Source: Oscillospiraceae bacterium
GTDB lineage: Bacteria > Bacillota > Clostridia > Oscillospirales > Ruminococcaceae
Length of the DNA: 64,000 bases
NCBI GenBank assembly: GCA_022768245.1
Contig: JALEMR010000088.1
Location: 1 to 64,000, forward strand
Direction of reading: 5' to 3'
Part shown: piece after piece, positions 10,657 to 64,000 of the stretch
How the letters are laid out: each line of letters begins with the position of its first letter
Position numbering within the stretch: the first letter of the stretch is position 1
Made by a program: the position numbers and the translations under genes
Notes under the pieces: model-generated
Seen by the model: only the letters and a program-made list of their open reading frames with translations
The model's database searches: none
What the model was told of the DNA's origin: nothing

Positions 10657-10694
10657 TATTTCCCGCTGCCCGCATATCCGTCTTTGAACAGAAA

Positions 10695-10750
10695 AACAAA
10701 ATGTGCCCGACAAATACAGCTTCGTATTTGTCGGGCACATTTTGTTTTAT
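10695..10750. terminator. Very strong bidirectional terminator
   Basis: A 23-bp perfect stem (10695-10717 with 10724-10746) with the 6-nt loop AGCTTC, T-rich on both outer sides. It separates the lipoprotein gene from convergent clpB. Confidence 0.93.
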
Positions 10751-13371: not shown

Positions 13372-13455
13372 TTAGCTATTAGCGATTAGTGATTAGCTAT
13401 TAGCGTTGGCAGTCCGTAATCCATAGCTGATAGCTGTTTGCTAATTGCAATTAGC
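13372..13455. repeat. 12-unit heptamer tract upstream of clpB
   Basis: 84 bp in exact 7-bp phase: TTAGCTA, TTAGCGA, TTAGTGA, TTAGCTA, TTAGCGT, four degenerate or shifted units, then TGTTTGC, TAATTGC, AATTAGC. It lies in the clpB 5' region, directly before its SD. Confidence 0.75.
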
Positions 13456-13547
13456 TTCTTATTTGTCAACTATTATGATAACACAAATAATTGAAAGAAA
13501 AAGTACAGCATGGTAACAATTGATGAAATATTTGTGAAAACTATTTG

Positions 13548-13582
13548 AAACAGCTAACAGCTAATAGCTAATTGCTAATCGC
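13548..13582. repeat. 5-unit heptamer tract after the Gfo/Idh gene
   Basis: Units AAACAGC, TAACAGC, TAATAGC, TAATTGC, TAATCGC in exact phase, 9 nt beyond the stop codon of the minus-strand gene at 13591. Confidence 0.8.
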
Positions 13583-13590
13583 AAAGACGC

Positions 13591-21596: not shown

Positions 21597-24428
21597 ATGG
21601 ACAAGAAAAATAAGATCGTGATAAAGGGCGCAAGAGAGCATAATCTCAAAAATGTCAGCCTTGAGCTGCCCCGTGACAGCCTTATCGTGATGACGGGACT
21701 GTCAGGCTCGGGAAAGTCCTCCCTTGCATTTGATACTATCTTTGCCGACGGGCAGAGAAGATATATGGAAAGCCTTTCCTCCTATGCGAGAATGTTTATG
21801 GGACAGATGGAAAAGCCCGACGTGGACTCTATCGAGGGGCTTTCTCCCGCTATTTCCATCGACCAGAAAACAACGTCCCGAAATCCCCGCTCCACAGTGG
21901 GAACGGTCACCGAAATATATGACTATCTCCGTCTGCTGTACGCGCGGATAGGTATCCCTCACTGTCCCGTCTGCGGACGTGAGATAAAGCAGCAGTCGGT
22001 GGACCAGATAGTCGACCAAATAATGGAGCTGCCCGAAAGAACGAAGATACAGCTTTTGGCTCCCCTCGTCAGAGGAAAAAAGGGCGAGCATGTCAAGGTG
22101 CTGGAGCAGGCGAAAAAATCGGGCTATGTCCGTGTGCGCGCAGACGGGATAATTTACGATATCTCCGAGGAGATAAAGCTTGAAAAGAACAAAAAACACA
22201 GCATTGAAGCGGTAGTTGACCGTCTTTCCGTAAAGGACGGTATTCAGGGACGCCTTGCCGACAGTATCGAGACCGTGCTTGCACTGTCGGGCGGAGTGCT
22301 TATCGTGGACGTCGTTGACGGGGAGGAGATATTCTTCTCGCAGAACTACGCCTGCCCCGAGCATAACATATCCGTGGAGGAGCTTACCCCGAGAATGTTC
22401 TCCTTCAACAATCCCTTCGGAGCCTGCGAAAAATGTACGGGACTGGGTTCATTCTCACGGATAGACCCCGACCTTATCATTCCCAATAAGGAGCTTTCCT
22501 TAAAGCAGGGCGCAGTCAAGGCAATGGGCTGGCACACCACCGACGAGAATTCCTTTGCGATGATGTACTACCGCGGACTTGCCGAGTATTACAATACCTC
22601 CATAGACCTGCCTGTCAGCGAGCTTCCCGAGGGCTTCGTGGATTCGCTGATGTACGGTACGGGCGATGTGAAGCTCACTCTCCACCGTGCGGAGATGTAC
22701 GGCGGAGGAACGTTCACGCAGCCCTTTGAAGGCATAATCCACAATCTTGAAAGGCGCTTCAAGGAGACCAATTCTGAGTTCAGCCGAGCCGAGATACAGG
22801 ACGTGATGACCGAGGAGGAATGTCCCGACTGTCACGGAAAGCGTCTGAAAAAGGAAAGCCTTGCGGTGACCGTGGGCGGGATAAATATATCCGACCTGAC
22901 CGACAAGTCCGTGGCGGACTGCCTGGACTTCTTCGATAATTTACAGCTCACCGAGCGAGAAGCCCTCATCGGCGAGAGGATAATCAAGGAGATACGTTCC
23001 CGTCTTGGCTTCTTAAAGAGCGTGGGGCTGGAATATCTCACCCTGTCCAGAGCGGCGGGAACGCTAAGCGGCGGCGAAAGCCAGCGCATACGCCTTGCCA
23101 CGCAGATAGGCTCTTCGCTAATGGGCGTGCTGTACATTCTTGACGAGCCCTCTATCGGACTTCATCAGCGGGACAACGACAAGCTTATCGCCACCATGAA
23201 GCGGCTCCGCGATCTGGGGAATACCCTTATCGTGGTGGAGCACGACGAGGACACCATGCGCGCGGCGGACTATATCGTGGATATCGGACCCTATGCGGGA
23301 GTCCACGGCGGAGAAATAGTTGCGGCGGGAACTATCGACGATATCATGGCATGCGAGCGCTCCTTAACGGGACAATATCTCAGCGGAAAGCGGAGGATCC
23401 CCGTCCCCGAGGAAAGGCGTAAAGGAAACGGCAATTTCCTGCGTATCATCGGCGCTGCGGAGCATAATCTGAAAAACATCGATGTGGAGATACCCCTCGG
23501 GACGTTCACCTGCGTTACGGGCGTTTCGGGCTCGGGAAAATCCTCCCTTGTGAATGAGATACTCTATAAAAATCTTGCGGGAAAGCTGAACCGTGCGAAG
23601 GTGCGTCCCGGCAGCTTCAAGGCAATGGAGGGACTGGAATATCTGGACAAGGTCATAGATATCGACCAGTCGCCTATCGGACGGACTCCCAGGTCGAATC
23701 CTGCCACATATACGGGTGTGTTCAATGATATCCGCGATATCTTCGCCGAAACAAACGACGCGAAGATGAGGGGATATACCGGCGGAAGATTCTCCTTCAA
23801 TATCAAGGGCGGACGCTGTGAGTCCTGTCAAGGCGACGGCATCATCAAGATAGAGATGCACTTCCTGCCCGATGTGTACGTCCCCTGCGAGGTCTGCAAG
23901 GGACAGCGCTACAACCGCGAGACTCTCGAAGTGAAGTACAAGGGCAAGTCCGTCTATGACGTGCTGGAGATGACCGTTGACGAGGGCGTGGAGTTTTTCT
24001 CGGCGATACCGAAGATATCCCGCAAGCTGAAAACCCTGCAGGACGTGGGACTGGGCTACATCAAGATAGGACAGCCCGCCACCACTCTTTCGGGCGGCGA
24101 GGCGCAGAGAGTAAAGCTTGCTGCCGAGCTTGCAAAGCGGGGCACGGGCAGGACGATATACATTCTGGATGAGCCCACCACGGGACTTCATTCCTACGAT
24201 GTCCATAAGCTGACGGAGGTATTGCAGAAGCTGGTTGACAGCGGAAATACCGTTGTTGTCATCGAGCATAATCTGGACATCATCAAGACAGCGGACTATA
24301 TCATCGACTTAGGACCCGAGGGCGGAGAGCGGGGCGGACAGATAATGGTCTGCGGCACTCCCGAAGAGGTGGCGAAATGCGAAGCCTCCTACACGGGACA
24401 GTACCTGCGCAAGATGATTAGTGAATAG
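21597..24428 (+). CDS. uvrA: Excinuclease ABC subunit A
   Basis: A 943-residue nucleotide-excision-repair ATPase starting at [19 protein letters not shown]. Two ABC modules: Walker [10 protein letters not shown] (near residue 35) and GVSGSGKSS (near 645); signatures LSGGESQR and LSGGEAQR; Walker B ends LDEPS and LDEPT. Zinc-binding cysteines appear in CPVCG, CPECHGKR and CESCQGDG...CEVCKGQR. UvrA scans DNA for bulky lesions and loads UvrB. uvrB is not adjacent. The last residue codons and TAG stop already belong to a heptamer tract (ATT AGT GAA TAG). Confidence 0.97.
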
Positions 24429-24465
24429 CGATTAGCAATTAGCTTATTAGTGAATAGTGAATAGT
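24419..24465 (+). repeat. Heptamer tract starting inside the uvrA end
   Basis: TAG recurs at 24419, 24426 (the uvrA stop), 24433, 24440, 24448, 24455 and 24462: 7-bp spacing with a single 8-bp step. Confidence 0.85.
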
Positions 24466-24466
24466 T

Positions 24467-24504
24467 AAAGCAGCGGTTTCCTTTTTGGTAACCGCTGCTT
24501 TTGC
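24467..24504. terminator. First of four terminators between uvrA and GH74 gene
   Basis: AAAGCAGCGGTT (24467-24478) pairs with AACCGCTGCTTT, followed by T4. Equivalent hairpins stand at about 24542-24577, 24616-24652 and 24697-24733. A-rich starts allow use on the minus strand too. Confidence 0.85.
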
Positions 24505-24778
24505 TAATTGCTAATAGCTAATCACTAATGGCTGTTAATACAAGCAGTGGTCACCTTTTTGGTAACTGCTGCTTTTGCTAATTACTAATAGCTAATCACT
24601 AATGGCTGTTAATACAAGCAGCGGTCTCCTTTTTGGTAACCGCTGCTTTTGATAATTGCTAATCGCTAATGGCTAATCACTAATGGCTGTTAATAAAAGC
24701 AGCGGTCACCTTTTTGGTAACCGCTGCTTTTGCTATTTGCTGATCGCTATTCGCTAATTGCTGCTTATGCTAATCGCT
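24468..24778. repeat. Four tandem copies of a terminator-hairpin plus heptamer unit
   Basis: Units start at 24468, 24542, 24616 and 24697, giving lengths of 74, 74, 81 and about 82 bp. Each starts with AAGCAG(C/T)GGT, an 11-nt T-rich loop region and ACC/ACTGCTGCTT, forming a 10-14 bp hairpin with T4 after it. Each continues with GCTAATT-like heptamers. Units 2 and 3 differ by exactly 7 bp (one more heptamer). The block fills the convergent gap between uvrA and the GH74 gene. Confidence 0.92.
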
Positions 24779-43771: not shown

Positions 43772-45121
43772 ATGGATTCCGACGGGAGTAGTATGCTCTT
43801 CGGAGTAATTTTGTTTCTGACAGTGGCATTTATCAGGTGCTGTTTCACGGTATGCGAAACGGCGCTTACCGAAATTTCGGACGCAAAGGTAAAAAGCTAT
43901 AAGAACAGCGGCGATAAAAAGGAACGGGTGGTTTACCGTCTGCTGAATAAGCCCCTGCGCATGATGACGGCGTTCTCCGCCATTCGTATACTTACGGCGG
44001 CGCTTTCGGCGTTTACGGCAGTGCTGTATTTTTATCCCCCCCTGCGGGACCTGCTCATCCGACAGACGGGAGCACAGTCCTTCTGGGCAGTGCTGGGGCT
44101 GAAGGCTCTGGCTGTGGTGATAGTATCGGTGCTTCTGGTGCTGTTCCTGACTGCGTTTACCGACGGCATCCCCCGCAGGATAACCGCTCTCGGCAAAAAC
44201 AAGGGCTCGGAAAAAACAGCCAAGAACTGCTCCGCCTTTATCCACGGCGCAGTTATCGCTCTGGCTCCTGTTACTCTCCTGTCCGAGAAGATAATAATCG
44301 GGGTGTCCTCCCTTTTCGGGATAGACCCCGCCGCGGAAAAGGAGCTCGTCACCGAAGAGGACATACTTATGATGGTGGACGCGGGAAACGAAAACGGCGT
44401 TATCGAGGAATCTCAAAAGGAAATGATAAACAACGTTTTCGAATTCGGAGACCTGCCGGTGTCGGACATTATGACTCACAGGACGGAGATCTCCGCTATA
44501 TCTGTAGATTCGGGCGTTTCGGAGCTGGTATATCTTGCCATGAATACGGGCTTTTCGAGAATACCCGTCTATAAGGATTCCATCGACCATATCGTGGGGA
44601 TAATCTGCGTAAAGGATCTGCTCTGCCTTGTCTGCGGCGACAGTGCGGATTCAATGCTTATCAAGGACTTTGTCAGGGACGCTATATTCTTCCCCGAGTC
44701 GGGAATGTGCGGGACTCTCTTCAAGCGCATGACAGCCGAGAAAAATCAGCTTGCCGTGATAGTGGACGAATACGGCGGAACGGCAGGCATCGTTTCGCTG
44801 GAGGATATCGTTGAGTCGGTCATGGGCAATATTCAGGACGAATACGACAACGAGACCGAGGATATCATCAAGATATCCGAAAATGAATACACCGTCAGCG
44901 GAACGGCAAATCCCGAGGAGATACTGGGAGAACTGGGCGTATCGGTCCCCGAGGACAGCGATTACGATACCATGAGCGGAATGTTCATCGACCTTTTAGG
45001 CTATATCCCCGAGGACGGAGAAATGCCGTCGGTAATGTATAAAAATATCAGACTTACGGCTCTTGTAACGGAGGATATGCGCATAGAACGTCTGAAAGCG
45101 GAAGTGGTACCTAGTACTTAG
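43772..45121 (+). CDS. CNNM/HlyC-CorC-type membrane protein with CBS pair
   Basis: A 449-residue protein. The N-terminal DUF21/CNNM membrane domain has about four hydrophobic segments (residues 8-30, 70-95, 108-135, 155-175), although the first is interrupted by charged and Cys residues. A CBS pair spans about 230-350 (VSDIMTHRTEISAIS, YGGTAGIVSLEDIVESVMGNIQDEYD), and a CorC_HlyC domain closes the protein. Homologues export Mg2+ or Co2+. The divergent mgtE supports a Mg2+ link. The last residues (PST) and the TAG stop lie within a 28-unit heptamer array. Confidence 0.88.
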   Translation: MDSDGSSMLFGVILFLTVAFIRCCFTVCETALTEISDAKVKSYKNSGDKKERVVYRLLNKPLRMMTAFSAIRILTAALSAFTAVLYFYPPLRDLLIRQTGAQSFWAVLGLKALAVVIVSVLLVLFLTAFTDGIPRRITALGKNKGSEKTAKNCSAFIHGAVIALAPVTLLSEKIIIGVSSLFGIDPAAEKELVTEEDILMMVDAGNENGVIEESQKEMINNVFEFGDLPVSDIMTHRTEISAISVDSGVSELVYLAMNTGFSRIPVYKDSIDHIVGIICVKDLLCLVCGDSADSMLIKDFVRDAIFFPESGMCGTLFKRMTAEKNQLAVIVDEYGGTAGIVSLEDIVESVMGNIQDEYDNETEDIIKISENEYTVSGTANPEEILGELGVSVPEDSDYDTMSGMFIDLLGYIPEDGEMPSVMYKNIRLTALVTEDMRIERLKAEVVPST

Positions 45122-45307
45122 TACTTAGTACCTAGTACATAGTACTTAGTACTAAGGATTTCAAACTAAGAACTATGAACTAAGAACTATGAACTAAGTA
45201 CTATGAACTAAGTACTAAGTACTAAGTACTATGAACTAAGTACTAGGTACTAAGTACTAAGAACTATGAACTAAGTACTAGGTACTAAGTACTAAGTACT
45301 AAGTACT
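45112..45307 (+). repeat. 28-unit perfect-phase heptamer array
   Basis: 196 bp, exactly 28 x 7, with no slip in phase. Six units are TAGTACT/C/A; two are irregular (AAGGATT, TCAAACT); twenty are AAGTACT, ATGAACT, AAGAACT or AGGTACT. Almost all units create TAG, TAA or TGA across their boundary on the plus strand, and the near-palindromic AGTACT core gives stops on the minus strand as well. It starts inside the CNNM-type gene and ends 28 nt before the first transglutaminase lipoprotein. Confidence 0.95.
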
Positions 45308-61587: not shown

Positions 61588-61626
61588 ATCATTTGATAAT
61601 TGATAATGTATAATTGAATTATGACC
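61585..61626 (+). repeat. 6-unit heptamer tract starting at the metY stop
   Basis: Units TGAATCA, TTTGATA, ATTGATA, ATGTATA, ATTGAAT, TATGACC from the TGA stop codon. Confidence 0.7.
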
Positions 61627-61665
61627 GGCAGCGGCAGCTTTACAGCTTTCCGCTGCCGGTCTTTA
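61623..61665 (+). terminator. Terminator after metY
   Basis: A 12-bp perfect stem GACCGGCAGCGG (61623-61634) with CCGCTGCCGGTC (61650-61661), then TTTAATTATT. Confidence 0.88.
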
Positions 61666-61780
61666 ATTATTGACCGTCAATTCTCAATTAATTTACCTGT
61701 GCAGTATGGATAAAGAACAAAAAAATAGCTGACTAAATACTGTGCAATAGGTATATTTTTGCTTTTTCGGGGAAAAGGAC

Positions 61781-61809
61781 TTGACATTTGAAAAAATTAG
61801 GTGTATAAT
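61781..61809 (+). promoter_or_regulatory. Consensus promoter of rpoB
   Basis: TTGACA at 61781-61786, a 17-nt spacer and TATAAT at 61804-61809. It gives a leader of about 290 nt. Confidence 0.9.
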
Positions 61810-61906
61810 ATTACAATGTATCGAAATGTATGGTGTCGTTGTATGCTTAAAAAAATATACTTTTTTGGTGTATTTTATTTTTCTTCTGCGGCATAGCTTT
61901 TTCTCA

Positions 61907-62080
61907 AGGTCGCCTCTAAAAACCATAGTGCCTCAGATGCGCAGTCGGATTTTTCGTCAGATTGTATAGAAATTTCGCAGGCGGGCTGACGCCCGGTAAG
62001 AAATTTCTGTGCAATATGACGGAAAATCTGCAAGCAGATGAGGTGCTAAGGCGACAGATGCTGGTTTTTAGAGGTGACCT
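61907..62080 (+). repeat. Giant near-perfect inverted repeat in the rpoB leader (MITE or structured leader)
   Basis: Arms pair along most of their length: 61907-61925 with 62062-62080 (19 bp, one G-T), 61927-61935 with 62039-62047, 61948-61959 with 62017-62028, 61961-61976 with 62000-62015, and a terminal hairpin CGGGC-TGAC-GCCCG (61982-61995). The ends are GTCGCCTCTAAAAACCA and TGGTTTTTAGAGGTGAC, flanked by the direct repeat CTCAAG (61903-61908 and 62079-62084), as expected of a miniature inverted-repeat element with target duplication. It ends 10 nt before the rpoB SD. Confidence 0.85.
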
Positions 62081-62106
62081 CAAGTAATATAAGGAGGATT
62101 CCGCCT

Positions 62107-64000
62107 ATGGTGAATGTTAAGCCGGTGCAGCTCGGCAAAACCACTCGAATGAGCTTCGGTAAGATCAACGAGGTCATTCCGATGCCGAATCTTATCGAGG
62201 TGCAGAAAAATTCCTACAAATGGTTTGTTGAGGAGGGTCTTAAAGAGGTTTTCCGCGATGTGGCCACTATCTCGGACTACAACGGAAACTATGAGCTTAA
62301 TTTTATTGACTACCGTATCGAAGAAACGCCGAAATATACAGTCGCAGAATGCAAGGAGAGAGACGCCACATATGCGGCTCCTCTTAAGGTAAAGGCAAGA
62401 CTTGTCAACAAGGAAACGGGCGAACAGAAGGAAAATGAGGTCTATATGGGCGATCTGCCCCTTATGACCGAGAGCGGTACCTTCGTCATCAACGGCGCGG
62501 AGCGTGTTATCGTATCCCAGCTGGTGCGTTCCCCCGGCGTTTACTACGCTTCCGAAAAGGATAAGACCGGTAAGGATCTTTTCAGAACTACCGTTATCCC
62601 CAACAGAGGCGCTTGGCTTGAATATGAAATGGATTCCCAGGACGTGGTATACGTCCGCATCGATAAGAACAGAAAGATCCCTCTGACTACCTTTATCCGC
62701 GCTCTCGGAATAGGTACCGATCAGGAGATCGAGGATATGTTCGGCGTGGACGAGCGCCTTAACCAGACTATCCTTCAGAAGGATCCCGCCAAGAATACCG
62801 AAGAGGCTCTTATCGAAGTGTATAAGAAGCTCCGCCCCGGCGAGCCTCCTACGGTGGACAGCGCTCTGGCACATCTGAATATGCTCTTCTTCGATTCCAA
62901 GAGATACGATCTTGCGGATTTCGGAAGATATAAATACAACAAGAAGCTCGGCATTGCTTCCAGAATGGCGGGTCATACCCTTTCGCGCCCTGTTGCGGAT
63001 CCTATGACAGGCGAGATCATCGCCGACGAGGGCGAGTTCATCTCCTACGAGAGAGCCGTAAAGATCGAAAGAGCAGGCGTTGCCGAAGCATGGGTAAACG
63101 TTGAGCACAGGGAGAGCTATACCACTCCCACAGGCGAGACCCACAACAAGGTCGAGACAAGGGAGATAAAGCTCATCGGCAACGGTATGGTGGATATCAC
63201 CGATTTCTGCGATATCGACCCCGAACAGTTCGGCATCAATGAGCTTGTATCCTTCAAGGTATTAAGAGAGATCATCGAGACCGCCGCGGACAAGGACGAA
63301 ATGGAAGAGATGATAAGCAAGCGCAAGGACGAGCTTATCCCCAGACACATCATCCTTGACGATATCTACGCTTCTATCAGCTACTTTATCAACCTCTGCG
63401 AGGGCGTGGGCACCGTCGACGATATCGACCACCTGGGCAACAGACGTATTCGTTCCGTGGGCGAGCTGCTCCAGAATCAGTTCAAGATCGGCTTTACCAG
63501 AATGGAGCGCGTTATCAGAGAACGCATGAACACCACCAGCCAGGACATGACCAACATGACTCCTCAGGCGCTTATCAATATCCGTCCCATAACTGCGGCT
63601 ATCAAGGAGTTCTTCGGCTCCTCGCCTCTGTCCCAGTTCATGGACCAGAACAACCCTCTTGCAGAGCTTACTCACAAGAGACGTCTTTCCGCACTGGGCC
63701 CCGGCGGTCTTTCCAGAGACCGTGCGGGATTCGAGGTCCGCGACGTTCACTACTCCCACTACGGAAGAATGTGTCCTATCGAGACCCCTGAAGGTCCTAA
63801 CATCGGACTTATCTCCTATCTGGCTTCCTTTGCGAGGATCAACAAGTACGGCTTTATCGAGGCTCCGTACAGAAGAGTTGACAAGGAAACGGGAGTAGTT
63901 ACCGACGAGGTGGTTTACATGACCGCCGACGTGGAGGATAACTACATCGTTGCTCAGGCAAACGAGCCCCTTACTCCCGAGGGAAAATTTGCACGTCCCG
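62107..64000 (+). CDS. rpoB: RNA polymerase beta subunit, 5' part (3' truncated by window)
   Basis: 631 codons are visible from ATG 62107, behind AAGGAGG (62091-62097), open to the end of the window. N-terminal protrusion and lobe: [49 protein letters not shown]. The rifampicin-binding region is wild type at key sites: [31 protein letters not shown]. Usually rpoB follows rplK-rplA-rplJ-rplL, but here metY precedes it and it has its own promoter and long structured leader. rpoC should follow outside the window. Confidence 0.97.

Follow-up and report, generated by a model that had tools for sequence, protein, structure and literature searches.

The giant hairpin in the rpoB leader of this Oscillospiraceae bacterium is, with a probability of about 0.95, a miniature transposable element (MITE) that inserted there by IS5-type transposition. 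In the window, the 64,000-nt stretch of DNA analyzed here, rpoB occupies positions 62107-64000 of the forward strand and runs off the end, and both its ATG start codon at 62107 and an intact Shine-Dalgarno sequence (AAGGAGG, 62091-62097, forward strand) are conserved in relatives. Upstream, a putative forward-strand promoter (TTGACA-17-TATAAT, 61781-61809) matches the consensus at 12 of 12 positions and is conserved in same-genus leaders, which would place the element inside the transcribed leader. The initial annotation had remarked that rpoB lacks its usual L10-operon context; this looks family-wide rather than peculiar, since a crude, unvalidated scan of 1.5 kb upstream of rpoB per genome (0.9 kb in one) revealed an L10 or L7/L12 motif in none of 30 genomes.

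The 182 bases at 61903-62084 fold into one long stem with a minimum free energy of -100.6 kcal/mol, a value that none of 200 dinucleotide shuffles equaled (-48.7 +/- 4.4 kcal/mol; z = -11.85), confirming that the hairpin is real. Its exact limits are provided by the rpoB leader of the same-genus genome G003, TTTTTCTCAAGTAATATAAGGAGG, in which the insert is absent and a single TCAA remains as an exact empty site; residues 1-200 of the RpoB protein encoded in G003 are identical to those of the host. The comparison bounds a 172-bp element at 61908-62079 of the forward strand, flanked by target-site duplications TCAA at 61904-61907 and 62080-62083, and thereby narrows the initially annotated extent (61903-62084) while leaving the stem itself in place. 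The CTCAAG direct repeats first proposed as the duplication do contain it, but the single TCAA of G003 indicates that the true duplication is 4 bp rather than 6 bp, with the outer C and G being coincident bases contributed on each side by one flank base and one element-end base. The 17-bp terminal inverted repeats, GGTCGCCTCTAAAAACC (61908-61924) and GGTTTTTAGAGGTGACC (62063-62079), resemble ends found on IS5-family transposons and differ by one G/A mismatch, equivalent to G-U in RNA, so that they are not perfect as had been described; likewise, the element ends 11 nt, and not 10 nt, before the Shine-Dalgarno sequence. Within the element, a core shared with MITEs that have other ends spans 61940-62047 and encloses an apical domain, CGCAGG-CGGGC-TGAC-GCCCG-GTAAG, at 61976-62000, whose internal loop recurs in a second MITE family with unrelated ends. 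No open reading frame of 60 aa lies within the element, and none of the other congeneric genomes searched (G001, G002 and G003) has it upstream of rpoB. On this comparison, the rpoB insertion appears to be recent.

The rpoB element therefore presents the features of a MITE: a length of 172 bp (within the 50-1000 bp of the class), terminal inverted repeats without a transposase gene, a target duplication with its empty site, dispersed copies, and ends common to autonomous transposons. All the checks that the initial annotation set for a MITE (further copies, transposases with ends of this kind, an empty site) came out in its favor, the transposases being located in relatives. The arms recur in the genome, and a search of the host assembly (2.41 Mb in 102 contigs, here labeled C) with the element returned 44 local matches. 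Four of these, including the rpoB copy, are near full length at 90-100% (98% in C95, 90% in C97 and C13), and about ten extend only over query positions 33-155, corresponding to the core; the host total is approximately 14 long copies plus many derivatives of 33-95 bp. When the copies are aligned with their flanks, nearly all begin with GG and finish with CC, and every flank is different.

The alignment also reveals three sets of ends on one core in the host genome. The first, GGTYRCCTCTAAAAACC, is found at rpoB and in C95 and C97, with a variant, GGTCRCCTCGTTTAAACC, in C13, C4 and C10; the second, GGYAAYACCGCACAAAG, occurs in most host copies; and the third, GGRAWCACTGATTARATC, is present in C61 and in copy G002b of a sister genome. 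The rpoB element and the C42 copy are 93% identical across the core (element positions 33-140) and only 52% identical in their ends. These sequence comparisons suggest that a conserved core carries interchangeable ends, swapped between different IS5-type transposons. A short consensus, GGYMAYACCKCAC, occurs 32 times in forward and 31 times in reverse orientation in the host genome (2 and 1 times for the reversed-pattern control) and marks mini-elements of 33, 46, 74, 83, about 93-95 and 172 bp. Elements of 33-34 bp, some with target duplications, consist of little beyond two inverted 13-bp ends (C21:4037-4069 [L131], C24:23097-23129 [L132] and C51:18725-18757, as well as others on C41, C71, C72 and C97), and may represent the family's smallest mobile units.

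Beyond the host, 17 of 120 sampled genomes of the bacterial family match the element, and exact 172-bp copies occur in relatives. Pattern counts imply some 100 elements in G117 and some 50 in G112; among the G117 elements that were read, 30 are exactly 172 bp long, many of them alike in fold energy and flanked by perfect duplications, a picture suggestive of a recent burst. Among the G117 end matches listed, a run lies on one strand; the listing covers only some of the matches, and we draw no chromosomal orientation bias from it. Identical 4-bp flanks surround 10 of 15 elements with rpoB-type ends and 54 of 81 with GGCAA-type ends, against 1.6 and 16.7, respectively, expected by chance when flank partners are shuffled. 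The duplicated motifs (TTAA, TATA, TTTA, TAAA, TTAG, CTAA, TCAA) appear close to the YTAR target duplication reported for IS5 (PMC10359306): TTAA, TTAG and CTAA are common for GGCAA-type ends, and duplications of the rpoB type (TCAA, TATA, TAAA, ATAT) follow YTAR less closely. Matches to the ends alone, seen in G028 and G037, proved to be further MITEs of about 170 bp and not autonomous copies. Partial copies of the MITE core were also observed in five unannotated gut phage records (MT835572, MT835489, MT835885, MT836531 and MT835480), and a plasmid search with the element yielded no match. Taken together, these sequences define a large, widespread family of hairpin MITEs in Ruminococcaceae-type gut bacteria that is apparently undescribed, our literature search having found no paper on MITEs in these organisms.

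The initial annotation had called for a transposase gene with the same ends; transposases with ends of this kind exist in relatives, but profile searches (PF01609, PF13751, NF033581) identified no IS5 or DDE_Tnp_1 transposase in the host genome, and the candidate drivers are consequently drawn from relatives. In G112, an IS5-family transposase of 325 aa is encoded by a 1136-bp unit that is bounded by GGCAACACCGCA and GGCACCACCGCAC and flanked by a CATA duplication. Scanning of genome contigs recovered 80 related loci, of which about 30 have GGCAAYACCGCACA-type ends; some 20 of these, mainly in Oscillospirales, show identical 4-bp flanks in an automatic search, often TTAA or TTAG, and a transposon with GGCAA-type ends and one stop is present in the same-genus genome G002. 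For rpoB-type ends, an intact 1241-bp transposon was found in G045 (GGGGACCTCTAATAACC / GGGCATCTCTAAAAACC; TATA duplication; NF033581, 4e-81), and fragments of NF033581 transposases adjoin GGTAACCTCTAAAAACC in G074, GGACACCTCTAAAAACC in G112 (twice) and GGCAGCCTCTAAAAACC in G002. The rpoB-type ends share 13-15 of 17 bases with the transposon ends of G045, G361, G074, G112 and G002, and only 13-14 of 17 with the intact G045 transposon. The autonomous partners of 1.1-1.24 kb carry both kinds of ends, and their transposases score 320 and 272 bits on NF033581 (cut-off 140). Because both driver types were found and the G112 and G045 transposases are 29% identical, two IS5 sub-clades match the two MITE end sets around one core. 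The core itself has no detectable similarity to the 80 fetched IS loci, which argues that the element is not a simple internal deletion of those transposons. On C73, two ends separated by 1540 bp were rejected as an autonomous copy, since they belong to two separate mini-elements around an unrelated gene, and no transposon was found at single ends on C81, C95, C88 and viral contigs.

These data are consistent with a model in which an IS5-family DDE transposase, of the kind found in relatives, would have acted in trans on the 17-bp ends of the gene-less element and inserted it at TCAA in the rpoB leader, duplicating 4 bp, after the split from the close relative G003. The driver was presumably lost from the host or is missing from its assembly, which, at 102 contigs, could have dropped a multi-copy IS. 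In the transcript, the complementary arms would pair into a roughly 170-nt hairpin, a domain of its own lying 27 nt before the rpoB start, beside which the promoter, the Shine-Dalgarno sequence and the predicted native leader fold would stay in place. No terminator is predicted.

About a dozen further places in the host genome match only 37 nt of the element's apex. Those that were read are 161-bp hairpins (one of 179 bp) with GAACCTGTCTTCACAAG ends and, where seen, 3-bp duplications (TAA, TAT); members include L331:268-428, L335:295-455, L336:231-409, L034:1439-1599 and L254:512-672, and the family is also present in G003 and G005. The apical RNA domain, CGCAGG-N4-CTNNCG-N5-YAAG, occupies the same structural position as in the rpoB element and is the only part that the two have in common. 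Two or more MITE families thus contain this domain, although their ends are unrelated and their duplications differ in length (4 bp and 3 bp).

To characterize the fold across the family, we aligned 26 copies, related to one another, from 12 genomes. Pairing at the 66 consensus pairs holds in 96.3% of alignment cells, compared with 35-46% in slid-register controls, and 39 of the 66 show double (compensatory) changes, a level reached in none of 500 shuffles. The fixed bulges of the fold and a small side stem on its 3' arm largely persist even at 38% core identity by position (G030), and, just below the apex, a conserved internal loop, C[RCA]G / C[RA]G, accompanies the side stem in the candidate RNA fold. 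By eye, a similar internal loop is seen in divergent MITEs of G028, G037 and G115. Each of the 26 copies has its better fold on the strand shown and not on the complement (mean -92.3 versus -68.2 kcal/mol); in G037 the energies run the opposite way. At the DNA level, G-U and A-C oppositions are one type of mismatch read from opposite strands. When the two arms are aligned strand-symmetrically, G-U exceeds A-C by 150 to 66, and 24 of the 26 related copies favor G-U, the exceptions being C60 and G005b. Because DNA would treat both oppositions alike, this excess points to pairing kept in the RNA of the strand shown. Since the copies share descent and some G-U pairs are ancestral, strand-specific maintenance of the fold as RNA is suggested but not proved. 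Tentatively, and at less than even odds, the hairpin may be a mobile structured RNA of about 170 nt that is selected on one strand and borrows different IS5-type ends.

Other structured sequences were noted in the window, in which no Rfam family reached threshold and only weak sub-threshold matches were present. A weak Termite-leu match at 61620-61722 (27 bits versus a gathering score of 51) follows a metY-like gene and is probably only the terminator region of that gene. A perfect 25-bp inverted repeat with a 6-nt loop at 10693-10748 is terminator-like, and arrays of heptamer-like repeats (AGTACTT and ATTAGCG types) at 45107-45307, 24415-24758 and 13379-13585 form large imperfect palindromes.

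The position of the hairpin between a consensus promoter and the Shine-Dalgarno sequence, together with its strong covariation, would also suit a conserved cis-regulatory leader RNA of rpoB, such as an attenuator or autoregulatory site, as the initial annotation had alternatively proposed. The covariation, however, is a property of the mobile element family rather than of an rpoB leader; dozens of further copies are scattered over unrelated contexts in the genome, no Rfam match reaches threshold, and the element is precisely absent in G001, G002 and G003, the very observation that the proposal had named as refuting it. We consider such a leader RNA very improbable. An origin of the palindrome by local inverted duplication, or as an assembly artifact, is still less credible: near-perfect palindromes are classic products of template switching and of assembly, but the 98% identical copy on C95, the same boundaries across copies, the target duplication and the empty site all argue for transposition.

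A harder alternative to dismiss is a MITE with a sizeable or co-opted effect on rpoB, in which a stabilized mRNA 5' end or cutting by RNase III alters dose. RNase III is known to cut Correia elements in transcripts (PMC10969869), the hairpin would be transcribed if the promoter is used, and the copies on C13 and C76 are likewise found 25-30 nt ahead of a start codon. Against this, the hairpin falls outside the expected ribosome footprint, and the predicted leader fold is otherwise unchanged, its native pairs being kept whether the leader is folded with or without the element (-132.9 versus -32.3 kcal/mol). Furthermore, in a tally from crude gene calls, the copies show no orientation bias to neighboring genes (approximately 33 sense versus 35 antisense), so that a regulatory role specific to rpoB is not supported. 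We regard a sizeable effect as rather unlikely. With promoter, Shine-Dalgarno sequence and start codon intact, leader pairs kept and copy orientation balanced, we infer that the MITE insertion at rpoB is tolerated rather than regulatory, and that its effect on rpoB is predicted to be small; a modest effect on mRNA stability is possible.

The element is of a known kind, an IS5-derived MITE, examples of which are BrickBuilt and MITE293/700 of Porphyromonas gingivalis and ATR of Neisseria meningitidis (PMC4596501). Like these, it is non-coding and intergenic, with IS5-like terminal repeats and many copies (PMC4596501). Unlike BrickBuilt, which has a minisatellite inside, the rpoB-type element, strictly 172 bp long, consists almost entirely of a single covarying hairpin, and one core carries two or three alternative end sets. 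With the Correia or NEMIS elements of Neisseria it shares being a short palindromic MITE in transcribed leaders, where RNase III cutting is known (PMC10969869), but ends, host phylum and transposon family differ. It can also be likened, by description and not by sequence, to the small interspersed intergenic hairpins of RUP, BOX, ERIC and REP-type repeats. Correia, NEMIS, RUP and REP elements duplicate TA, whereas the rpoB-type element has IS5-type ends and a 4-bp duplication. Transposons of the NF033581 group (transpos_IS5_4) match the MITEs in their terminal GG...CC repeats and in their 4-bp duplications, most of them YTAR-like, and differ in that the MITE core bears no detectable similarity to the 80 loci. 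As far as the literature we found extends, novelty lies in the family, in the transposons that likely drive it in these bacteria, in the exchange of ends around a covarying core and in the apparently strand-specific pairing.

The tempting account of an rpoB leader RNA is thus replaced by a precisely bounded and apparently recent insertion. Unexpected were the conservation of the core alongside swapped ends and a pairing that is seemingly kept in an RNA- and strand-specific manner; the question of whether some bacterial MITEs are in fact mobile RNA genes thereby becomes open to test. The rpoB copy provides a natural experiment, in which an essential, dose-sensitive gene carries a 172-nt leader hairpin and a sister species retains the empty site.
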